A stretch of DNA of 38,616 nucleotides, taken from a virus. Shown here piece after piece: positions 19,294 to 38,401 of this stretch. The first letter of the stretch is position 1. Every line of letters starts with the position of its first letter. The DNA is taken from positions 1 to 38,616 of IMG/VR virus record IMGVR_UViG_3300037294_000662; one strand, written 5' to 3'. The notes beneath the pieces are model-generated. The model was given only the letters and a program-made list of their open reading frames with translations. It was not told the DNA's origin and did no database searches. A program made the translations under genes and the position numbers.

Positions 19294-20861
19294 TGAGCCT
19301 CGAGAACAGGAAATACCTCAGGCTCCTCGCGGACTATGACAAGCATTGCGCCCGCATATCCAAGGCTACCACCGTGGACATCCACGAAGCCCCGGAGAAA
19401 AAAGTAAAAAGGGTTCAAACCTTGGAAAAAGACTACGTGAAGTGGTTCGAATACTACTTTCCAAACTTTGCCAAAAAGAAGTCCGCATGGTTCCACAAAA
19501 GACTGGCAAGTCTCATCGTGGACAACAAAAGCATTCGCCTGGTTGCGGAGATGTATCGGGGAGCCGGGAAGTCGGTCCATATCGACATGGGCATTCCGCT
19601 GTTTCTATACCTGGCAAAAAATGACCTGCGCTTTATGCTCCTCATCGGTCAGACCGAAGAGAAAGCAAACAAGCTCCTCGGAGGCATCCAGTCCCAACTC
19701 ACCCACAACAACCGCCTAAAAAATGACTATGGCGAAAAGGCCCAGCACGGTGATTGGTCATCGGGTGACTTTCTCACCACGGATGGCGTGCGGTTTTCAG
19801 CACTTGGATTTGGGCAGGATCCACGTGGATCAAGGGAAGAAGCCGACCGTCCCGACTACATCGTAGTGGATGATGTGGATTCCAAAAAGCATGTGAATAA
19901 TGACCGCCTAATGCGTGAAGCCCTAGACTTCCTGACCGAAGATGTCTGGGGCTGCTTTGACTCGGATGAGGACGCGACCAACCGCTTCATTTTCGCCAAT
20001 AACAACTTCCACCGCAATTCCATCACCAATAGGCTCCGGGTCTATTTCCTAGAGCAGCTTGCAAAACAGCAAATGACGGGTCGGAAGTCGAGCACGCTGT
20101 TCGAAGTATTCCGGGTATGTGCCGTCAAAAACCTCACGGACTTCGAACCCGAGTGGCCAGAGCGGGGAGGCGCTGCCTACTGGCGTGACAAGTATGACAA
20201 CATGCCCTATCGCTCGTTTATGCGCGAGTACATGCACGTCCACATCGAAGAGGGCAAGGTCTTCAAGTCAAAGGACATGCTATATAAGTCTCCGTACTTC
20301 ATGCGGGATTACGAGGCATTATGCTTCTATGGTGATTTGTCTTACAAGGCCAACGGTGACTTCAAGGCCATGGTCTTGGTAGGTAAGAAAGGCAGGGAAT
20401 TTCACATCCTTTTGGTTTATCTCCGTCAAAAGAGCCGCTCGGATGTCGCCAGATGGCTCTATGACATGTATGAGATGCTGGATCTGGGAAAGCAAAACAT
20501 CCGCTACCTGATCGAAGGGCTCTTTGCAATGGATGAGTTCACCAATGACTTCGACATGGAAGGTGATCAGCGGGGATTCTACATCCCGGTGCGAGCGGAC
20601 AAGAGCACAAAGGGTGACAAGTTCGACCGGATCGAGTCCTTACTTGGATTCTTCGAGAAGCACATGGTCTTCTTCAACGACGACTACCAGACAGTAGATC
20701 AGCTCGAACTGATCAATCAATTCCTGGCATTTGAGAAAGGCTCACAGGCACACGATGACGGCCCCGATGCCGTGCATGGCGCATTCACGAATGTGAACAG
20801 GCGCACAGCTCACCGGGAATCCACCTACGTGATAGGCTCCCGATCGGATAACCATTATTAA
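19293..20861 (+). CDS. Large terminase subunit (Mu gp28-like)
   Basis: This 522-residue motor packages DNA into the prohead and cuts it. The ATPase half has Walker A at RGAGKS (89-94), Walker B at IVVDD (190-194) and a following coupling region with FIFANNNFHR (232-241). The nuclease half has acidic residues Asp348 (YGDLS), Glu408 (LIEGL) and a DDGPDAV cluster at 488-494, typical of the RNase H-like fold. The start overlaps the upstream stop as TAATG, which decides it over upstream codons. The downstream palindrome at 20866 could separate it from the portal unit. Mu-type headful packaging into host DNA is inferred from the other genes. Confidence 0.93.
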   Translation: MSLENRKYLRLLADYDKHCARISKATTVDIHEAPEKKVKRVQTLEKDYVKWFEYYFPNFAKKKSAWFHKRLASLIVDNKSIRLVAEMYRGAGKSVHIDMGIPLFLYLAKNDLRFMLLIGQTEEKANKLLGGIQSQLTHNNRLKNDYGEKAQHGDWSSGDFLTTDGVRFSALGFGQDPRGSREEADRPDYIVVDDVDSKKHVNNDRLMREALDFLTEDVWGCFDSDEDATNRFIFANNNFHRNSITNRLRVYFLEQLAKQQMTGRKSSTLFEVFRVCAVKNLTDFEPEWPERGGAAYWRDKYDNMPYRSFMREYMHVHIEEGKVFKSKDMLYKSPYFMRDYEALCFYGDLSYKANGDFKAMVLVGKKGREFHILLVYLRQKSRSDVARWLYDMYEMLDLGKQNIRYLIEGLFAMDEFTNDFDMEGDQRGFYIPVRADKSTKGDKFDRIESLLGFFEKHMVFFNDDYQTVDQLELINQFLAFEKGSQAHDDGPDAVHGAFTNVNRRTAHRESTYVIGSRSDNHY

Positions 20862-20865
20862 TCTT

Positions 20866-20896
20866 ACCCTCCAAGGGTTTAAAACCCTTGGAGGGT
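20866..20896. repeat. Perfect 15-bp inverted repeat accctccaagggttt
   Basis: Arms at 20866-20880 and 20882-20896 are exact complements around one base, and flanking bases extend the symmetry. It starts 5 bases after the large terminase stop. It resembles a transcript-end hairpin with no clear U-run, but the sequence also matches a common Bacteroidota palindromic repeat family. Confidence 0.9.
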
Positions 20897-20914
20897 TAAA
20901 TATAAATCAGTCTT

Positions 20915-21527: not shown

Positions 21528-24089
21528 ATGGCAGAAAACACGTCTAACGCCAAAGTGGGGAAAAGCTACCTCCCCTGGGCAGCAAAATCAATCAGCCGAA
21601 CACGCCAGGACATCAAGTCATGGAACACCGGCCTCAACATGGCTCGCATGGCTGAGCACCCGCAAAACTGGCCTCTTCAGCTCACCTATGATGAATGTGA
21701 TCTAGATCCCTTGATTTCTTCCCAGTGGAACAATCGAAAGAATCAAGTCTTCAGCGCAGATTTCTCCCTCAAAAAGCCAAACGGCGAAATCGATGAAGAG
21801 CAAACCCTTTTGCTCAAAAAGCATCCCCTCTACCGGATGCTGACAAATGCCGCCTTAGACTCGATCATTTTCGGGTACAACCTGGTAGAACTCGCCATGA
21901 AAGGCACAGGTGACCAGGCGTATCTTGGAGCGGATCTGATCCCACGCTATAATGTGGTACCACAGACCGGAATGTTCTACAAGGATTATGGAGACACCGC
22001 CAACTTCATCAAGTATCGAGAGCTGCCTGAGTTTGGTGTATGGATTCTGGAATTCAATTCCGGTAACCTCGGACTGATGAACAAGCTCGTAGCACCGGCC
22101 TTGTTCACCCGATTTGCAGAGGCCTCATGGTCTGAGCTCTGTGAGATTTACGGTATTCCACCGCGTGTGTTGAAGACGAATACCCAAGACTCAACGATGC
22201 TCAAGCGTGCCGAATCCATGATGCGCGATATGGGTTCAGCAGCCTGGTTCATCATCGATGAGACAGAGTCCTTTGACTTTGCCAAAGGAGCGAGCACCAA
22301 CGGTGACGTGTACAAGAGCTTAATCAATCATTGCCGAGACAAAATCTGTAATCTGCTATCAGGTGGAATGATCGGGCAGGATAGTGAGAATGGGAATCGT
22401 GCCAAAGATCAGGTGTCAATGGACATGCTTTGGCTATTGGTGCAGTCGGATATGGCTATGCTGGAAGAGACCTGGAACAATACCATCATTCCCGCGCTGA
22501 TCAGGCACGGTGTGATCACCGGTGATGTAAGCTTCGAATTTGATCAGGCCGAAGATGTCAATCAGCTGTGGACATTCGTCCAGGGACTGCTTCCCCATTA
22601 TGAGATAGATCCGGAGTGGATCAAAGAAAAGTTTGGAGTGGATGTCACCGCTGCCAAAGTGCAGAATGATCTGACCACCACACTGGCACTGGCATTATCC
22701 AAGGCAGTCCCTCCCCCTCCAGGGGGAGCCGGAGGGGGAGATGGGGACCCGGATTTTTTTCCGCCAGCCCCGCAGGTCGGGGCGTGCTGTGGAACTCACC
22801 ACACCTTACTCCCCCTCAAGGGGGAGCTAGAGGGGGTAAAAGGGGCTCTCCCCCTTCAGGGGGAATTAAAGGGGGTAAAAAGTGATAAGCTGATCACCAG
22901 AGTAGCAGAGACAAGCGGACAACTCGTCTTTGATCCTGAGACGTTCCAGTCCACTGCCAAAACCCTTAAACAAGGGTTCAACAAAAAGCTGGACGGTCGC
23001 AAAATTAGGCTGGATGCAAACTTTTCCAAAGTTCCAAACTTTGGAAAAGCTAAAAAGAAGCTCTCCATCGGCACCGCCTACGGCATCGATTCACCCCACT
23101 TGCTTGCATCCTTTGAAATGAACCTCTTCCGATTCTCAGCCGGCAAAACACTTGCCCAGGTGCAGGCGCTCAATCAGGCATTCCAGTCGGCCCCTAGCTT
23201 CGACATCTTCAAGATCAACGCCAATCGGATCGGTGACGTGTTCAATGACCGATGGCTTCGCACCGAGTTTGACACCGCCGTCCTGGTAGGGGAGAGCGCA
23301 AACAACTATTACAGCCTCCTTCAGGATGTGGACGTATTTCCATACTGGGAATATCGCACCGCCGGTGATGCGGCAGTACGGGAAGAGCATGCCACATTGG
23401 ATGGCCTGATTCTCCCTGCCGACGATCCAAGATGGTCAAAGATCTTCCCGCCAAACGGATGGAACTGTCGCTGCTACGTAGTCGCCAGAACCCGCGAAGA
23501 AATACTCGGTGTCAACTTCACCGATATGCAGCAGAAAGCAGACACCTACTTTGGGTCGGATGACTTTGAGCGGGCAAGCAAGTCGGGATTCGGAGTCAAC
23601 CGCGCCACTTCAGGCGAGGTATTCACCGCCAATCAGCAGTATATAAGCGGCAAGAATCTCACACAATCCACCAAGATGATCAATGACCTCGAGCCTAAGG
23701 ATTACGGGTTAAAAACTGCCGAAGATTTGCTAGAAAAAGCAACCAGAAGCCTGCCCGAATCGAATAAGGCACTTTCGGAATTCATCGGTGAACTCGATGT
23801 GCTGAATGGCAAGCCGATCCTGACCGACTACAGTAAGCGCGCTTTGAACTTTCCTGCGCAAATCAGTACCGGAGAAGATCTGCTCGAAGCCCTCCGAGAC
23901 ACCCTTTCCAAGCCTTCCGAGGTATGGGTGAAAACAAGGCCCGCCGGATATCAACTGACCTATTTCAATTATTACAAGGGGGAAACCTTCCAGGTGATTG
24001 CCGAACTGGAAAATCTGGAACTGAATATTGTGCTCTGGCGCAAAATCAAAAGCATCGAATCTAAACGCAAAGGAATGCTACTAAGATGA
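21528..24089 (+). CDS. Fused portal (Mu gp29-like) - MuF head morphogenesis - putative C-terminal nuclease domain
   Basis: This 853-residue protein joins functions that Mu encodes in separate genes. Residues about 1-390 are a DUF935-type portal (for example IYGIPPRVLKTNTQ at 207-220 and NHCRDKICNLLSGGMIG at 267-283). Residues about 394-452 are a low-complexity linker made of the repeats listed below. Residues about 455-665 carry the MuF signature HATLDGLILPADDPRW (621-636) and GWNCRC (644-649). Residues about 745-853 (PSEVW, TYFNYYKG, FQVIAE, KRKGMLL) resemble the PBECR toxin-like nuclease fold found at the C-terminus of MuF proteins. The C-terminal assignment is by pattern only. The gene overlaps gpG as ATGA. 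Confidence 0.82.
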   Translation: MAENTSNAKVGKSYLPWAAKSISRTRQDIKSWNTGLNMARMAEHPQNWPLQLTYDECDLDPLISSQWNNRKNQVFSADFSLKKPNGEIDEEQTLLLKKHPLYRMLTNAALDSIIFGYNLVELAMKGTGDQAYLGADLIPRYNVVPQTGMFYKDYGDTANFIKYRELPEFGVWILEFNSGNLGLMNKLVAPALFTRFAEASWSELCEIYGIPPRVLKTNTQDSTMLKRAESMMRDMGSAAWFIIDETESFDFAKGASTNGDVYKSLINHCRDKICNLLSGGMIGQDSENGNRAKDQVSMDMLWLLVQSDMAMLEETWNNTIIPALIRHGVITGDVSFEFDQAEDVNQLWTFVQGLLPHYEIDPEWIKEKFGVDVTAAKVQNDLTTTLALALSKAVPPPPGGAGGGDGDPDFFPPAPQVGACCGTHHTLLPLKGELEGVKGALPLQGELKGVKSDKLITRVAETSGQLVFDPETFQSTAKTLKQGFNKKLDGRKIRLDANFSKVPNFGKAKKKLSIGTAYGIDSPHLLASFEMNLFRFSAGKTLAQVQALNQAFQSAPSFDIFKINANRIGDVFNDRWLRTEFDTAVLVGESANNYYSLLQDVDVFPYWEYRTAGDAAVREEHATLDGLILPADDPRWSKIFPPNGWNCRCYVVARTREEILGVNFTDMQQKADTYFGSDDFERASKSGFGVNRATSGEVFTANQQYISGKNLTQSTKMINDLEPKDYGLKTAEDLLEKATRSLPESNKALSEFIGELDVLNGKPILTDYSKRALNFPAQISTGEDLLEALRDTLSKPSEVWVKTRPAGYQLTYFNYYKGETFQVIAELENLELNIVLWRKIKSIESKRKGMLLR
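22708..22880. repeat. Palindromic ccccctcaaggggg repeats at the portal-MuF junction
   Basis: Two clusters, 22708-22745 and 22809-22880, contain units such as ctccccctccagggggag, ctccccctcaagggggag and cccccttcaggggg. They fall in frame exactly between the portal and MuF domains and translate to PPPPGGAGGG and LPLKGELEGVKG-type peptides. The same family appears inside the gpG-like and GemA-like genes. Confidence 0.9.
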
Positions 24090-25845: not shown

Positions 25846-26388
25846 TTAAAAATCAGAGAGTGCTTTTTTATTTTGGGCTACTGAATAATCGTCCGCTTTT
25901 GACTTTAGGTCTTTATCAACCATCAATAAAGAATCCTCTCCTAGGCCATTGTAGTCAAGCATCATGACCACAGCCTTGCCCCGCCAAATAAACCGATCCA
26001 TAAATTGGTTGGGCTTGGTGCCCCTTCCATATGCCTGAGTAAAAACTTCGTGCAATTTTGATCCATTTGGCTTTGCCAACTTCATGTATATCATGGTGAC
26101 TCTAGATTCAAAAGCCAAAACTAATATACTTTCGATTTGGACCAAATCAGAGATGTTTAGCATCTCAGGATCTATGACATCATAGGCAATCATACCGGGT
26201 CCTACCATAGTGGAATCTAGAGACTCTGAAAGGTAATCTTCAATTGAGGAAATCGGCATTCCTAGTGTTATTTCTTTAAAGCTTCTTTTAAAGTCCAGAT
26301 ACTGAACGGTTCCAGGCTTTACCTCTTTTTGACCAAAAGAAGCCAAAGGCATAATGACCAAACAAAGGACTAGTAATATATTTTTCAT
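25846..26388 (-). CDS. Secreted protein, probable moron gene
   Basis: This 180-residue protein has a signal peptide (MKNILLVLCLVIMPLASFGQ) of the Bacteroidota type, with likely cleavage before Gln20. The mature part (about 160 residues) contains FKEITLGMPISSIEDYLSES and LMVDKDLKSKADDYSVAQNKK and is probably periplasmic or outer-membrane-associated. It is preceded and followed by hairpins, stands alone as one gene, and sits away from the replication genes, all typical of a moron (host-fitness gene). Its function cannot be read from the sequence. Confidence 0.65.
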   Translation of the reverse strand: MKNILLVLCLVIMPLASFGQKEVKPGTVQYLDFKRSFKEITLGMPISSIEDYLSESLDSTMVGPGMIAYDVIDPEMLNISDLVQIESILVLAFESRVTMIYMKLAKPNGSKLHEVFTQAYGRGTKPNQFMDRFIWRGKAVVMMLDYNGLGEDSLLMVDKDLKSKADDYSVAQNKKALSDF

Positions 26389-26437
26389 AACTATTTGATT
26401 TAAAAATTAAAACTAGTCTTTGATCCTTACATTTCTA

Positions 26438-26461
26438 TACCCTGTACAGGGTATTTTTTGT
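26438..26461 (+). other. Palindrome with T-run, right copy of an inverted pair
   Basis: The palindrome taccctgtacagggta (26439-26454) is followed by a T-run on the plus strand, a terminator shape with no rightward gene before it. It lies between the upstream gene's terminator and the start of the secreted-protein gene. It may be an operator or one end of a mobile cassette. Confidence 0.65.
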
Positions 26462-26462
26462 A

Positions 26463-26488
26463 GAAAAGGAGAGGTTTTCACCCCTCCC
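26463..26488 (-). terminator. Weak terminator after the 98-aa gene
   Basis: Minus-strand stem GGAGGGGT / ACCTCTCC with one mismatch, GAAA-like loop and a short T-run. It lies 7 bases after the stop of the gene at 26495. Confidence 0.6.
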
Positions 26489-26494
26489 GAATAT

Positions 26495-26791
26495 TTACTT
26501 CACTTGCCCGAGTGCTTTTCGAAGCAGCCGGAGGTAATGAATCTGATGCTCTACGGTCTGGCCTGGTAGCTCAGGATAGCGCAGCAGATAGCTGATGTAA
26601 TTAATCTCGATCTCTTCGAGGTAGATACTCAGCTCCTGAGGATCGATATGCTCCTGAAAGAGGTGCTCGAGCGGTGCAAGTGGATGGCCTGAAAAAGGCT
26701 GGATGATTGATGATTCCAACTTTTCAGAATCGGCATTGGGTGCTTGTTTTTCGTACATTTTTTTTGCGGGATCTTCGCAATAATAACCCAT
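26495..26791 (-). CDS. Hypothetical protein (98 aa)
   Basis: This 98-residue protein contains a short charged N-terminus and a helical C-terminus (LSIYLEEIEINYISYLLRYPELPGQ). It is the last gene of its unit, with a weak terminator after it. It has no membrane segment. Not recognised. The gene is complete with an ATG and stop and codon use like the adjacent early genes. Confidence 0.5.
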   Translation of the reverse strand: MGYYCEDPAKKMYEKQAPNADSEKLESSIIQPFSGHPLAPLEHLFQEHIDPQELSIYLEEIEINYISYLLRYPELPGQTVEHQIHYLRLLRKALGQVK

Positions 26792-26857
26792 TGTAACCGA
26801 TTACCAAAATTCATTTTTCACGATTCAATTTGATGTATACAAGTCTCAAAATAGGCG

Positions 26858-27436
26858 CTACTTATATCCTACCACCTGCCCGGCCTCTGTCTTGATTGCC
26901 TTCATTCCGAGACCTCGGAGATGTGTGTAGTAATTGATAGTCTCCTGTGGCGAGAGCTTTCGAACAAGATCGGAATTCCATTCGTTGGGAAACTTTCCGC
27001 TGCCCTGTCCCGCCAGATCCGCCCGAAACTCATTCCAGTACTTCACCAGGTTGGAGATCGACTGCTTGCCCTTGAATAGGAAGTTCTCAGAGCGAAAGTA
27101 GGCATGAAGCTGCTCTTCAGTCGGGTTGATCTGTTTGATCTTGCCAGCCTCCGCCGCGGTGACCTTGTACTTGATCGACTTATGCTTCTCATAGATCCGG
27201 CAGAAGATAGCCAGCTTCTCATTTGCCTGCGCTTCTTTAGTGATAGTGAGGCCAAGGCTTTTCATCTGATCTATTCCAGATTCAGCTACTGCAAGGTTGC
27301 TAATCAGGAAGCCTAATTTATCGCTATCCAAAGGCGGTTTAAATGTGGTTTCAAAGCCAATTAAAAACCCAAGCTCATAAGTCAGCCTGGCAGCTCCTTC
27401 ACGTGCAATGGATGTAAGTAGATAGGTAGTTTTCAT
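26858..27436 (-). CDS. Hypothetical early-region protein (192 aa)
   Basis: This 192-residue protein is rich in helices. The N-terminal part (MKTTYLLTSIAREGAARLTYELGFLIGFETT) carries a hydrophobic stretch near 20-30 that is not clearly a transmembrane segment. The central part holds NEKLAIFCRIYEKHKSI and the C-terminus reads LRGLGMKAIKTEAGQVVGYK. It is the first gene downstream of the putative gene cassette, about 27 bases from the nearer cassette repeat. I do not recognise the family. Confidence 0.55.
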   Translation of the reverse strand: MKTTYLLTSIAREGAARLTYELGFLIGFETTFKPPLDSDKLGFLISNLAVAESGIDQMKSLGLTITKEAQANEKLAIFCRIYEKHKSIKYKVTAAEAGKIKQINPTEEQLHAYFRSENFLFKGKQSISNLVKYWNEFRADLAGQGSGKFPNEWNSDLVRKLSPQETINYYTHLRGLGMKAIKTEAGQVVGYK

Positions 27437-27462
27437 AATTTATAAAAGTTAAATTAAACGCC

Positions 27463-27517
27463 TGCTAACAGCCGATTGAAGCCATCTGAAGAGACGGCTA
27501 CAATCTTGGTGTTAGCA
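27463..27517 (-). repeat. attC-like imperfect inverted repeat A (after the cassette ORF)
   Basis: In gene orientation it starts TGCTAACACCAAG and ends CGGCTGTTAGCA. The arms align as TGCTAACA-CCAAGATTGTAGCC against TGCTAACAGCC--GATTGAAGCC (revcomp of the 3' arm), with a short loop. It lies 6 bases after the TAG of the AT-rich ORF. The terminal 7-mers match those of repeat B. The AAC/GTT cores resemble attC, but GTTAGCA does not satisfy the full GTTRRRY consensus. Confidence 0.75.
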
Positions 27518-27523
27518 ACAAGG

Positions 27524-27799
27524 CTACATTGAGTCATACATTCTCTGTATAGCTTCGATTTCATTTTGGTGTATTTTACAATCTAACATATATGGTTTTT
27601 CTTTATTTGGTCTCTTATTACTAAGCACTTCCGCTAAAGCATTTTTAAGAGTCCCTGATTTCACATAACCTACTATTTGCCTTTCATCTGAGTGTTTGGT
27701 TATTATATTTGACACATCTTCTAAGGCTCTATCGTAAGAACATTGCCCTTTTTTGTAATTTTCGAATACGCCAAAAATTTCGTTTGCTACTAATTTCAT
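27524..27799 (-). CDS. AT-rich hypothetical gene in a cassette-like unit (91 aa)
   Basis: This 91-residue protein is charged and helical, with KLVANEIFGVFENYKKG at the start and KIHQNEIEAIQRMY near the end. The frame extends to a TTG at 27835 but the ATG at 27799 is preferred because the extension runs into repeat B. By hand count the region 27521-27800 has about 90 G/C in 280 bases, roughly 32%, well below the neighbouring genes. It is the only gene between two similar imperfect inverted repeats. This points to recent acquisition. The function is unknown. Confidence 0.6.
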   Translation of the reverse strand: MKLVANEIFGVFENYKKGQCSYDRALEDVSNIITKHSDERQIVGYVKSGTLKNALAEVLSNKRPNKEKPYMLDCKIHQNEIEAIQRMYDSM

Positions 27800-27826
27800 A
27801 CTTCTGTCTTTTAAAGACCGCCCAAT

Positions 27827-27913
27827 TGCTAACAATATGTATAGTAAATAAGCTGGTCAAGTTTATGTTTTAATTCAAATTTGTAGTACAGCTTACTTGC
27901 CATATATTTAGCA
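27827..27913 (-). repeat. attC-like imperfect inverted repeat B (before the cassette ORF)
   Basis: In gene orientation it starts TGCTAAATATATGGC and ends CATATTGTTAGCA. The arms pair as TGCTAA-ATATATGGCAAGTAAGCTG with TGCTAACAATATGTATAGTAAATAAGCTG (revcomp of the other arm), with a loop of about 33 bases. It follows the stop of the 79-residue gene by 12 bases. Different inner sequence but the same end pattern as repeat A. Confidence 0.75.
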
Positions 27914-27925
27914 TTAGCAGTCATT

Positions 27926-28165
27926 TCAATTATTCAAGTCCGCAATATCAACTCCTTCAGCTTCACAAAGAGTAGTTAAGATTAAATGAGCGTTGCTCAG
28001 TCCTTCGATAAATTGAGGCGGTAGCTCATCCGCAAAGCTGATCCGAGCGAGTAGCGACTCATTGTAGTTAAACAACAGCAAAGCCATTGCGCCAGCTTTC
28101 TGAATCTGCCTCAGCTCCATCTGCTGCTCAGGATCTTTGGTATCGATTTCAATTGTTATTTTCAT
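27926..28165 (-). CDS. Small hypothetical protein (79 aa)
   Basis: This 79-residue acidic protein has a strand-helix-helix pattern (MKITIEIDTKDPEQQMELRQIQKAGAMALLLFNYNESLLAR). It overlaps the upstream 84-residue gene by 4 bases (ATGA), so the two are probably cotranslated. Function not recognised. It directly borders the putative cassette. Confidence 0.55.
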   Translation of the reverse strand: MKITIEIDTKDPEQQMELRQIQKAGAMALLLFNYNESLLARISFADELPPQFIEGLSNAHLILTTLCEAEGVDIADLNN

Positions 28166-28416
28166 TGCTTTAAATCATTAAATTGTCCTAAGTACACCTC
28201 GATCGCACATCCAAAATCTTGGCATGCATCTGGCAGTTCGCATTCGCCACATGGATCAAAATCTCCTACTTGATCCCACATTTGATCCTCCTCCTCATCC
28301 AGTTCCATTTGCCTTCTGATTTCGGATTGTCGGAGCGACTCTCCCGTCTCCGGTCTTCGGTCCTCCGGCTTTCCGGGATTGAAATATGTTTCGCCGTACG
28401 TATTATCTGCACCCAT
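28162..28416 (-). CDS. Small Cys-containing hypothetical protein (84 aa)
   Basis: This 84-residue acidic protein has a central DEEEDQMWDQVGD segment and a Cys-rich segment with the spacing CxxCx6CxxxxC (residues about 56-70: CGECELPDACQDFGC). The pattern could bind a metal, though no family is recognised. It lies 3 bases after the GemA-like gene. The N-terminal 35 residues are hydrophilic and probably disordered. Confidence 0.5.
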   Translation of the reverse strand: MGADNTYGETYFNPGKPEDRRPETGESLRQSEIRRQMELDEEEDQMWDQVGDFDPCGECELPDACQDFGCAIEVYLGQFNDLKQ

Positions 28417-28419
28417 AAT

Positions 28420-28908
28420 TTATTTGTTTAAATTCTCCAAATAGCTCTTAAATACCTTGCCCTCAAATATGCTAACCAGAATATTCAGCTCCGGTACCGT
28501 GTGCTCCATCAGCGCCTTTTTATACTTCTGCTTCAGGCACCACCCATCCAGCCTCTCCAATATCAACTGATTCTCCGATCTCCCCTCTCCCCCCTTCATG
28601 GGGGCCGGGGGGGTAGGGGCCGGGGGGGTAGAAGCCGGGGTGGTAGGGGCCGTGGCAGTGCCCCAATTCATCTGCCGCCCTAGACTGATCATCTTCTTCC
28701 GCTGCAAGTCGCCGGGCTTGGGTGTCCAGTCTGTTTTCTTGTGTTGAAGATGCTTCAGGTATTCCAGCACATCGTCAAATTCCTGATCCGTAAGTGCTCT
28801 GAGGCTGGAAGTCCGCCCTTTGGATATCTCCCCAGCGAGTTCTTCCTTCTCGAATCCCTGCGCCTTGCACAGGGCAAAGAATTGGGAATAGTGGCGGGTC
28901 TTAGCCAT
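28420..28908 (-). CDS. gemA: GemA-like early protein (Mu gp16/DUF1018 family)
   Basis: This 162-residue protein matches the Mu gp16/GemA family by its N-terminal half (HYSQFFALCKAQGFEKEELAGE... ALTDQEFDDVLEYLKHL) and C-terminal half (RKKMISLGRQMNW ... LERLDGWCLKQKYKKALMEHTVPELNILVSIFE). GemA of Mu affects host gene expression and DNA supercoiling. Between the halves, residues about 84-112 are Pro/Thr/Gly-rich, encoded by the repeats at 28581-28650. The protein lies between the Pol X-like gene (overlap of 8 bases) and small accessory genes. Assignment by pattern. Confidence 0.7.
   Translation of the reverse strand: MAKTRHYSQFFALCKAQGFEKEELAGEISKGRTSSLRALTDQEFDDVLEYLKHLQHKKTDWTPKPGDLQRKKMISLGRQMNWGTATAPTTPASTPPAPTPPAPMKGGEGRSENQLILERLDGWCLKQKYKKALMEHTVPELNILVSIFEGKVFKSYLENLNK
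28581..28650. repeat. Pro-rich cccccttcatgggggccggggggg repeats inside GemA-like gene
   Basis: G-rich units on the plus strand (ggggccgggggggta, three copies with variation) with a ccccccttcatgggggcc palindrome. They encode the inserted peptide between the N- and C-terminal halves of the GemA-like protein. Confidence 0.85.
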
Positions 28909-29464
28909 TGGTCACCTCCCTGTCTTTAGGCTCAGGCATTGGGATGCCCAGGAGTTGGAATAGCTCCCATTCTTCCTTCACTTTTCGCTCCCACTTGCTT
29001 TTCTCATGGAATAGTATCCCCTCTACCGAGTGGTAGCCTCTGTGCACCCATCCACTGGCCAGCACCTTATGCGAGTACTCCGCTGATCCGGTTCGGATAG
29101 CCAGGATCAGGCCCCAGTTGGCAGGAGTGGCGAAGAAGAGGTCGAGCTTGATTGATCGCTCTTCCAGCTTTATCGCTCCTTTTTCAGTGCCTTCAGGATC
29201 ATCCACGAAGATGGATAAAGTGATCACCCGCTGCGTGTACTTGCAGGGAAGCTCGCCCTTTACCTTCACCCAGCGATTCACGACGGCAGCGATGCCGGAT
29301 TCAAATAGCCCCACTTCATAGGGCTTGGGAATCGCCACAATCTCGATGTCCTTTACTTCGGGCTTTTCCCTCCGGATAGACCCGGCGATCTGAATCCGCT
29401 CGCAATGTGGAGCCAGCTGCCTGACCAGCTCTTCAGCTATTGATTTGGCGTAGATTAGTTTCAT
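28901..29464 (-). CDS. Pol X-type nucleotidyltransferase, palm-only
   Basis: This 187-residue protein carries the DNA polymerase beta/X palm signature: GS at 28-29 within IAGSIRREKPEVKDIEIV, the two acids Asp39 and Glu41 (DIE rather than the usual DID), and a third acid at Asp108 (RSIKLDLFF). Residues 125-149 (TGSAEYSHKVLASGWVHRGYHSVEG) match the Pol X pattern TGS...F. The usual lyase and finger domains are missing. It could add nucleotides to DNA ends or fill gaps during transposition repair. Overlaps the neighbouring genes at both ends. Reaction inferred from family. Confidence 0.8.
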   Translation of the reverse strand: MKLIYAKSIAEELVRQLAPHCERIQIAGSIRREKPEVKDIEIVAIPKPYEVGLFESGIAAVVNRWVKVKGELPCKYTQRVITLSIFVDDPEGTEKGAIKLEERSIKLDLFFATPANWGLILAIRTGSAEYSHKVLASGWVHRGYHSVEGILFHEKSKWERKVKEEWELFQLLGIPMPEPKDREVTNG

Positions 29465-35416: not shown

Positions 35417-36313
35417 CTAGACTTGCTCCAGTTTGAGGACCGTTTTTGCTCTTCTCAATCCTCCGATTTGACCATCAGAATCCGAAGCCAGGCACTTCTT
35501 CACTAGGGCTGGCAGATTTTGCAGTCCGCTAGAATTGGCCTTTAAGACATCTGTGACCATCTTGCTGTAGAAGCTCAGTCGCTCACTTCTTTCTGTTGGG
35601 ACTATAGTCATGTACTTGGAGCTGTAGCGTGAGAATAGCTCCCGATAGCCTACTTTCTTGGTGTTGATGCCGTTTTCCCACTTTTTGCGAAGCCCATCGG
35701 CTCCCATGAGGTACCAGCCACACACATCCTCAGTAGCATTCCAAAACTCCTTCAGTTCTAGGATAGCGCCATATTCCAAGTCCCCCGCTTCATCCAGGAT
35801 GATCATTGGGTTTTCGAGCATTCGCAGGTAGTACTTGATGTTTTCTTTGATCTCAGCCACTCGCCCGATAGCTTCGATTCCGAGAACCTTAGCAAATGCC
35901 TTGATGAATAGAATCTTGTTTTTGGACTGGGAGCAGTCGAGATAGAAGCAGTTGGATAGTGTTTTGGAAAGATGCTTTCCTGCGACTGTTTTTCCAATCT
36001 CTGGCTCATCGACTAGGATCATCCCTTTGGAGTGCTTTTGGCAGAAAATCACATCTGCCTCGATAGCCTGATAGACTTCGGTTTTGACCAAGTTCCAAGG
36101 CGTTTTGTCAAGTTGGATATTCAGCTCACGACCAAGATTGATCCATTGGATGTCTTTTAGTAGGCCTTCAGACTCACCTTTCTTCAATCGGCTCCAGACG
36201 CTGGCGTTGATGCTCCATTGCTTCGCAAATCCAGCGTCTGAGCCTCCGTATCTAGTGCGTAGATCCTTGAGACCTTCGACTACTTGTGATTTGAATTCGT
36301 TAGTTATATTCAT
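35417..36313 (-). CDS. MuB-like transposition ATPase (AAA+)
   Basis: This 298-residue protein has an N-terminal HTH-like region (residues about 14-70) and an AAA+ domain: a Walker A-like VDEPEIGKT (101-109), Walker B MIILDEAGD (170-178), and an Arg-finger region with RYSSKYM. The first Gly of the usual GxxxxGKT is replaced by Asp102. MuB delivers target DNA to the transposase and blocks self-insertion. The gene lies 12 bases after the transposase stop. Role by analogy with Mu. Confidence 0.85.
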   Translation of the reverse strand: MNITNEFKSQVVEGLKDLRTRYGGSDAGFAKQWSINASVWSRLKKGESEGLLKDIQWINLGRELNIQLDKTPWNLVKTEVYQAIEADVIFCQKHSKGMILVDEPEIGKTVAGKHLSKTLSNCFYLDCSQSKNKILFIKAFAKVLGIEAIGRVAEIKENIKYYLRMLENPMIILDEAGDLEYGAILELKEFWNATEDVCGWYLMGADGLRKKWENGINTKKVGYRELFSRYSSKYMTIVPTERSERLSFYSKMVTDVLKANSSGLQNLPALVKKCLASDSDGQIGGLRRAKTVLKLEQV

Positions 36314-36325
36314 AGAAAAATGAGG

Positions 36326-38401
36326 TTAGAATCTTGATTTGGTGCTTGAATTGAAACGGCTTGGATAGCCTGGCATTTCTGTTTTTTCGACCGGAGCGAG
36401 TACTTCAGCTTCGGCTTCTTTTGTTTCATACTGCTTAAGGCCTGGCATGACAAAGCCGGGTTTTGCTTCTTTTGGCTTTTCTAGGATCGTGATGGGCTCG
36501 ATGGCTCTTGATGTTCTCTTGATGTAGGATTCTACTGTTGCGACATATGCGCTCATTAGTTCGCGGTTCTTATCGCCTTCCGGAGTGCGCTCCAGTGTAG
36601 ATCTGCTATAGCCAAGGTCTCCAAGTAGGTCACAGATTAGATTTTCCTGTAGATCATAGACATGAGCCTTGAGCACTTGACCTTCGCAGTCATCCAGCCA
36701 GTTCACTCTGACTTCTTTGCCCTCGATTCGCTTGAGAATGCCTATTAGCTTTTCGCCTGTGGCTACAGTTCCATCGAATCCAACTACTCGTTCTTTTCCC
36801 TGAAGCTTGATTCTGCCCAGGTGCATTGAGCTCCGCTGCTGAAATCCGATGTAAGGAAGTATACCGACCCAGTTGGTAGGCTTCAACTCTGGATGCTGCT
36901 TTGCCATGAATACTTCCCAGCGGGTCATTCCCGGATGTAGATCCTGATTGCTGTGAGGCGTATTGTTCCACTTTTGGATATTGCGAAGTGCGATCTCTAC
37001 GATTTCATCCTTTGGAAGCTGAATTGTTTTGCCAGCTCCCTTCTGATTGCTTTCGGCGATAGCGAAAGGACGCGCAAGCCATCCCTCTTCATCCTTTTCG
37101 TAGTCATAGCGAAGGCTTCTGTAGTAAGCCTCGATTCGCTTGCCTCGAGCGTTGTTTGCCTCGATTCTGACTCGTTGGAACATTGCGCCATTCTGGAGTA
37201 GGTTGTCTTGAAACATGCTGTTAAGGGACATTTCGCATTCCATCTCGTAAGGCAGGTTCATTCCCCAGAGATTGTAGAGCCTTACCATTTCGCGGTAGAA
37301 TTCCAGGATGATTCCCTCTTTCGTATCTCCCCATACCCAGGTAGTGAATGCCTCAGAGCCCAGATCGATGGCATTGTAGAACCACATTCTTTTTCCAGTG
37401 GCATATTCGAAGGGAGGTTGTCTGTCATCTATCGAGATTATAGATCCCGCAAACTTTGGCTGCTCTAATCGGTGCCAAGGCTTATAGGCTGACATGAATT
37501 TCTGACGGTCTCCACTTCTGAGTGCATGAGATCCGGCACGCTGTGCCCAGGCTGACTGATAGTTGTAGATTGTACTTTCTGAAGCTGCTCTGTAGTGATC
37601 AGCTGACGCATCGAAAAGTTCACCAGTAGCATTGTTGATGATCTCAAGAGATCCGTCCAGGAATGCGGCATATCGAAGAGCAACTTCTATGTAGGTCGGC
37701 TTCCTGTTTTTCTGACCTGCAAAAATATTTTGCCAAAGCTCGATCATCTCGGGAGTCACCAGCTGCGCATTGTTATTGTTGTTTCGACCGTCGATGAAGG
37801 TTTCGAAGCTAAATTTCTTGAAGTCATCGTGTCGCATTCTCAACCGCTTAGTGGATGAAGGGAGCGTATGAGTGATGTGTCCGATTTTCTTCAGGTGATC
37901 CTGGAAGGCTACCACGTCAGCGGCAAGAGCATCCCACATTCCCTTTAGGTTACCGCCTCTACTTTTGCGCTGTGCAGACCTGTTGGCTTTCAAAGCCATC
38001 ATGGCCTCCATCACACTTGCATTGATAGTGTATTGACCGCGCTGCTTCGCTGTCAAGTACTCGTCATTTTCAAATTGAAAAGTGTCGTAGTAGGTCTTCG
38101 CAGCTGGGCTGATCTGGAAGTAATTTTGCAGCGGATTGTAATCGGATTCAGGATTGCCGAGCTTCTCGCGGCAGATTGATTGCCATTCGTGAGGCATGCA
38201 GCTCCAGGAGATCAAGGCTTCATTCCCTTTACCTCTGCCTTCCTTCAATCGGAAGCCAGGAGTTCTTTTCGCGCGCTGCTTGTAGGCATCATAGGTGATC
38301 GCAGCAATTGAATTGGGGTGTCTTCTATCGGGCTCGCTCAGTAGGAAGCTTAGCCGGACTCCGATTTGGTTTTCGTGAATTTCGTAAGGTATCAGGTGCA
38401 T
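36326..38401 (-). CDS. MuA-like DDE transposase
   Basis: This 691-residue protein resembles Mu transposase. Residues about 1-240 contain DNA-binding helices, a linker follows, and the RNase H-like core spans about 320-515: Asp325/326 in SIDDRQPPF, then MECEMSLN at 387-394 and Glu424 in GKRIEAYYRSLRY. E388 and E424 are 36 residues apart, the DDE spacing, so the second acid seems to be Glu rather than Asp. Residues 515-640 match the Mu transposase C-terminal region (YIGFQQRSS). It starts at the ATG at 38401 after a short leader. Confidence 0.9.
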   Translation of the reverse strand: MHLIPYEIHENQIGVRLSFLLSEPDRRHPNSIAAITYDAYKQRAKRTPGFRLKEGRGKGNEALISWSCMPHEWQSICREKLGNPESDYNPLQNYFQISPAAKTYYDTFQFENDEYLTAKQRGQYTINASVMEAMMALKANRSAQRKSRGGNLKGMWDALAADVVAFQDHLKKIGHITHTLPSSTKRLRMRHDDFKKFSFETFIDGRNNNNNAQLVTPEMIELWQNIFAGQKNRKPTYIEVALRYAAFLDGSLEIINNATGELFDASADHYRAASESTIYNYQSAWAQRAGSHALRSGDRQKFMSAYKPWHRLEQPKFAGSIISIDDRQPPFEYATGKRMWFYNAIDLGSEAFTTWVWGDTKEGIILEFYREMVRLYNLWGMNLPYEMECEMSLNSMFQDNLLQNGAMFQRVRIEANNARGKRIEAYYRSLRYDYEKDEEGWLARPFAIAESNQKGAGKTIQLPKDEIVEIALRNIQKWNNTPHSNQDLHPGMTRWEVFMAKQHPELKPTNWVGILPYIGFQQRSSMHLGRIKLQGKERVVGFDGTVATGEKLIGILKRIEGKEVRVNWLDDCEGQVLKAHVYDLQENLICDLLGDLGYSRSTLERTPEGDKNRELMSAYVATVESYIKRTSRAIEPITILEKPKEAKPGFVMPGLKQYETKEAEAEVLAPVEKTEMPGYPSRFNSSTKSRF

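Follow-up and report, generated by a model that had tools for sequence, protein, structure and literature searches.

A small gene between two hairpin-type inverted repeats at a variable site in the early operon of a Mu-like phage

Is a small gene enclosed by two hairpin-type inverted repeats in a phage genome an integron gene cassette, or an accessory gene that arrived by another route? The locus that raises this question lies in virus record IMGVR_UViG_3300037294_000662, which we analysed over its whole length of 38,616 bases (the window; 47.9% GC). The minus strand carries the early genes of the phage. The window encodes a MuA-like transposase (36326..38401, minus strand; phrog_310, E 1.6e-28), an AAA protein in the position of MuB (35417-36313; AAA_22, E 1e-8), and Mu-type portal and F genes (21528-24089; Portal_Mu, E 1e-64; Phage_Mu_F, E 7e-13). 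Because these elements occur together, we assign the record to a Mu-like transposable phage, in agreement with the first-pass annotation, which had placed the locus in the early region of a transposable phage. The nearest named relatives of the transposase belong to phages of Bacteroides, Porphyromonas, and Elizabethkingia, alongside gut metagenome phages, and we place the phage among the Mu-like phages of Bacteroidota. Strong GC-rich palindromes of the type CCCCCTGAAGGGGG occur at 22707-22864, within the Mu portal/F gene, and a further one at 20845-20900, at the end of the preceding gene.

The locus sits between two conserved genes. On the right is p192 (26858..27436, minus strand), whose conserved block identified seven viral loci containing orthologs; on the left is a gemA-like gene, p162 (28420..28908, minus strand; Pfam GemA weak, E 0.07; phrog_14123, E 3e-10), with orthologs in loci L099, L100, and L102-L105. 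The two genes overlap or adjoin directly in L102-L105, and are separated by one small unrelated ORF in L099 (74 aa) and L100 (67 aa). The analysed phage instead carries three small ORFs on the minus strand: p84 (28162..28416), p79 (27926..28165), whose start overlaps the p84 stop, and ORF91 (27524..27799). None of the three is present in the relatives’ loci, ORF91 is also absent from the relatives’ whole records, and p79 has chance-level matches only in phages. The relatives lack the 364-bp unit that contains ORF91, yet they differ from the analysed phage across the entire slot. As three ORFs here correspond to none or one unrelated ORF in relatives, the slot is a variable accessory site in the early operon. 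Promoter-like sites around it are at background level. In the closest relative, the p187 ortholog (L099:2181-2786) contains a repeat, SGTGVTLSGTGVTLSEVEG, inserted in frame and missing from the analysed phage’s copy, and the gemA-like gene contains a low-complexity C/G-rich stretch of repeated GTAGGGGCCGGGGGG (28590-28650) where its orthologs are shorter. Two related Mu-like viral contigs encode a reverse transcriptase in the early region, not far upstream of the gemA-like gene (L100:1511-2503 and L104:1676-2725; PF00078, E 6e-17 and 2e-17, respectively); the analysed phage has none there.

ORF91 is a 91-codon gene with an ATG start, 31.9% GC, and no assigned function, matching the roughly 32% GC ORF that the first-pass annotation had described between the repeats. 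ORF91 and the stretch preceding it have a GC content of 31-32%, compared with 43-53% for the neighbouring genes. A tblastn search of phages found a single relative, in Flavobacterium phage MaF61 (ORF47), with 50.5% identity over the whole of ORF91 (E 1e-22); the existence of a real protein relative indicates that ORF91 is a real gene. Neither peptide patterns nor tblastn brought up any other relative in viral contigs, plasmids, or genome contigs, although the second genome-contig scan used two peptide patterns only and its null carries little weight. Neither protein has a confident family match, and a single-sequence AlphaFold model of ORF91 contains helices only, with a pLDDT of 57 that is too poor for a fold search. 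In MaF61, both adjacent ORFs overlap ORF47 in a tight operon, and we found no flanking hairpins or repeats at that gene.

The variable slot, the foreign composition of ORF91, and its relative in another phage are plain observations. They resemble what is described for phage morons and Mu-like accessory loci (PMC6469090; PMC4378225), namely horizontally acquired extra genes in variable places, with conserved neighbours and a differing GC content: ORF91 is likewise an extra gene between two that adjoin in relatives, and its base composition departs from that of the record. We therefore lean toward ORF91 being an accessory, moron-type phage gene that entered the variable early-operon slot by horizontal transfer. 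Its unit would have arrived by ordinary phage mosaicism, not through an integron integrase. A moron would also bring its own promoter and terminator and be expressed independently of the phage operon; around ORF91, promoter-like sites are at background level and the hairpin has no T-run. Unlike the morons in those reports, ORF91 has a hairpin repeat on either side, with TGTTAGCA common to both, and p84, p79, and the slot genes of L099 and L100 are tightly packed without hairpins, making the ORF91 unit unusual among slot genes.

The right repeat (27463..27517, minus strand) is a 55-nt imperfect hairpin, TGCTAAC...GTTAGCA, with the outline of an attC site. It lies 6 nt 3′ of the ORF91 stop and 26 nt ahead of p192, and comprises R-type arms with AAC/GTT, an unpaired spacer, and an inner stem with AGCC/GGCT. 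Its folding energy of -16.5 kcal/mol (z -6.9) was equalled by none of 200 dinucleotide shuffles, it ranks as the fourth strongest 56-nt window of the phage, and three dinucleotide shuffles of the whole record never reached -16. In 549 kb of other phage DNA, there are three hairpins of 50-75 nt and -14 or better that are closed by perfect 7-bp AAC..GTT arms. We rejected a standard terminator, as the T-run is absent. The region 26000-29000 has no relevant Rfam match. Folded as RNA, the hairpin reaches -28.6 kcal/mol; its most likely role would be at the RNA level, where it might protect the 3′ end behind the ORF91 stop or uncouple or attenuate p192.

The left repeat (27827..27913, minus strand) lies upstream of ORF91 and is an imperfect inverted repeat, TGCTAA...GTTAGCA, rich in AT. 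Its arms are complementary at 16 of 21 positions without gaps (P about 0.004; anchoring on GTTAGCA gives 0.0016), and TGCTAA..TTAGCA and GTTAGCA appear in 0.6% and 1.4%, respectively, of shuffles of this intergenic stretch; every one of these P values is post hoc, the place having been picked for these very features. Its folding energy is at chance level (z -1.1, 26 of 200 shuffles equally good). Thus, of the two long imperfect inverted repeats originally proposed, the right one holds by folding and the left one by arm pairing but not by energy, while the shared ends TGCTAA and GTTAGCA in gene orientation are present in both. Both repeats end in TGTTAGCA in the same orientation, 364 bp apart, and the 8-mer TGCTAACA recurs at exactly this spacing. 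In gene orientation, the p79 stop is followed by a 126-nt AT-rich stretch that ends in TTGTTAGCA plus 27 nt, then by ORF91, 6 nt, TGCTAACACCAAGATTGTAGCCGTCTCTTCAGATGGCTTCAATCGGCTGTTAGCA, 26 nt, and the p192 start. Inspection led us to reject the 8-bp TGTTAGCA as a transposon target-site duplication, as the ends inside it are not mutual inverted repeats.

Hairpins at both ends, a single cargo gene, and no long terminal inverted repeats would suit another small cassette-like or palindrome-ended mobile unit unrelated to integrons, such as a non-autonomous element mobilized by a single-strand transposase. An imperfect outer inverted repeat, CTGCTAA/TTAGCAG (27450-27468 and 27914-27932), fits such a unit, but, at 79% over 19 nt, it does not stand out from the other AT-rich matches of the same comparison. 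The two hairpins also differ in size and inner sequence, and a second copy was not found: hairpin DNA has chance-level matches only in phages and none in plasmids, and the pattern TGCTAACA..TGTTAGCAGGCG has one match in viral contigs, in an unrelated GC-rich contig, that we judged to be chance. We regard a mobile unit of this kind as improbable.

The order of GTTAGCA, 27 nt, ORF, 6 nt, hairpin, and GTTAGCA, with repeats 364 bp apart, is also that of an integron cassette, and the first-pass annotation had suggested a CALIN-like element, or else an unknown cassette-type mobile element, with repeats placed as attC sites are. In such a scheme, ORF91 and the right hairpin, acting as its attC, would form a true or degenerate cassette inserted by a host integrase in trans, at a secondary G|TTAGCA site or into the left repeat as a second attC. 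The R-type AAC/GTT arms, unpaired spacer, and inner AGCC/GGCT stem of the hairpin are in keeping with this scheme. We ran the attC covariance check that the annotation had called for with models of our own, built from published phage CALINs, the integrons of Vibrio and Shewanella phages, and viral integrons that an IntI alignment had retrieved. Our own structural scan, rather than any curated collection, supplied the training sites, which makes the models home-made substitutes for the published ones. Model R1 comprises 25 sites including that of phage P12002L; R2 comprises 26 model-aligned sites without it.

Both models place their best site in the record at 27463-27517, the right hairpin, which again favours a cassette, but neither score is significant (R1, 13.6 bits, E 0.31; R2, 11.2 bits, E 0.88). 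For comparison, sites from intI-linked arrays outside R1 training score from about 13 to 42 bits, the top scorers being near-copies of training sites. Among 96 kb of viral DNA selected as non-integron, a single hit matches the 13.6 bits, a rate of about one per 100 kb; the best score in 64 kb of relatives and MaF61 is 10.5. The right hairpin, moreover, scores on the plus strand, opposite ORF91, and reaches 7.4-7.5 bits on the minus strand; this counts against an attC because the attC of a cassette should share the strand of its gene. The left repeat, whose R′′ of TGCTAAA ends in TAAA where 25 of 25 training sites have AAC, matches neither model. The hairpin fold also has no bulged extrahelical base, as its inner-stem mismatches are symmetrical with no one-sided bulge. 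The boxes TGCTAAC/GTTAGCA do not strictly follow RYYYAAC/GTTRRRY, as had been observed for GTTAGCA at the outset, yet a strict GTTRRRY is found in only 9 of the 25 training sites, and GTTAGCN in 4 of 25. When extrahelical bases are lost, strand choice suffers but not all activity disappears, and these bases are not strictly needed (PMC2727003). The models thus fall short of establishing an attC site, although the hairpin may be an atypical one, because GTTAGCN-type R′ boxes are present in intI-linked viral arrays and extrahelical bases are no strict requirement. Several IMG/VR contigs (L028, L031-L034, L038, L049, and others) carry a gene similar to integron integrases together with attC arrays; some of these contigs may be misassigned bacterial fragments.

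Phage CALINs are a known category, with 17 CALINs and 4 integron or In0 records among 10,705 phage genomes (Qi et al. 2023, PMC9892861). The closest parallel is the Polaribacter phage P12002L, a Bacteroidota phage with no integrase and a short gene beside a hairpin that is also 55 nt long with TGCTAAC at one end. The attC of P12002L recombines with IntI1, and the attC sites of this phage are divergently oriented (PMC9892861). In contrast to the hairpin here (11.2 bits, E 0.88), the P12002L attC scores 16.7 bits (E 0.037) with R2, which never saw it. The absence of a visible integrase, already pointed out in the original annotation, was confirmed with TIGR02249, which has 0 matches in the record; the record thus does not contain a complete integron, which comprises an intI gene and attI. 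By the usual criterion a CALIN has at least two nearby attC sites, whereas the left repeat has no model match and the locus offers one candidate at most, and our own models detect no significant attC behind the gene on its strand. The attC/CALIN claim was accordingly not borne out. Two results had been named beforehand as refuting it, a missing structural attC score and relatives of the ORF without repeats; the model scores are of the first kind and MaF61 ORF47 of the second. By the original standard, the integron interpretation is largely refuted. We consider a true or degenerate cassette doubtful. The fuller proposal, in which a Bacteroidota Mu-like phage carries a cassette with an atypical 55-nt attC, captured by a host integrase and spread by phage transposition, appears unlikely. 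Were a cassette present, the empty junction would be the left TATTG joined to TTAGCAGGCG, and a 364-bp circle might form.

The accessory-gene explanation that we favour is supported by the slot (empty in L102-L105, one unrelated ORF in L099 and L100, three here), the GC of 32% against 43-53%, the MaF61 relative in a tight operon without repeats, the RNA fold, the non-significant attC scores on the wrong strand, and the lack of an integron integrase. Against it stand the tight, hairpin-free packing of the other slot genes, the shared TGTTAGCA in the same orientation at both would-be cassette boundaries, a hairpin that lacks the T-run of a standard terminator, and promoter-like sites at background. 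If the hairpin acts at the RNA level, the TGTTAGCA common to both flanks could be a short homology or a coincidence. The cassette-like layout, with a hairpin pair around ORF91, is left unexplained by an accessory gene.

A confirmed cassette here would extend a known category, the phage CALIN, to a new phage type. If the hairpins were to function as attC sites, a phage that transposes by replication would be added to the lytic and other temperate phages that serve as cassette vehicles, and the slot would be a natural capture record. The locus also teaches that, unless a model is used to score them, attC-like hairpins can mislead. As it stands, ORF91 and its ordinary, repeat-free counterpart in Flavobacterium phage MaF61 define a small phage protein family, and the interval between the gemA-like gene and p192 is a variable cargo slot in Mu-like phages of Bacteroidota.
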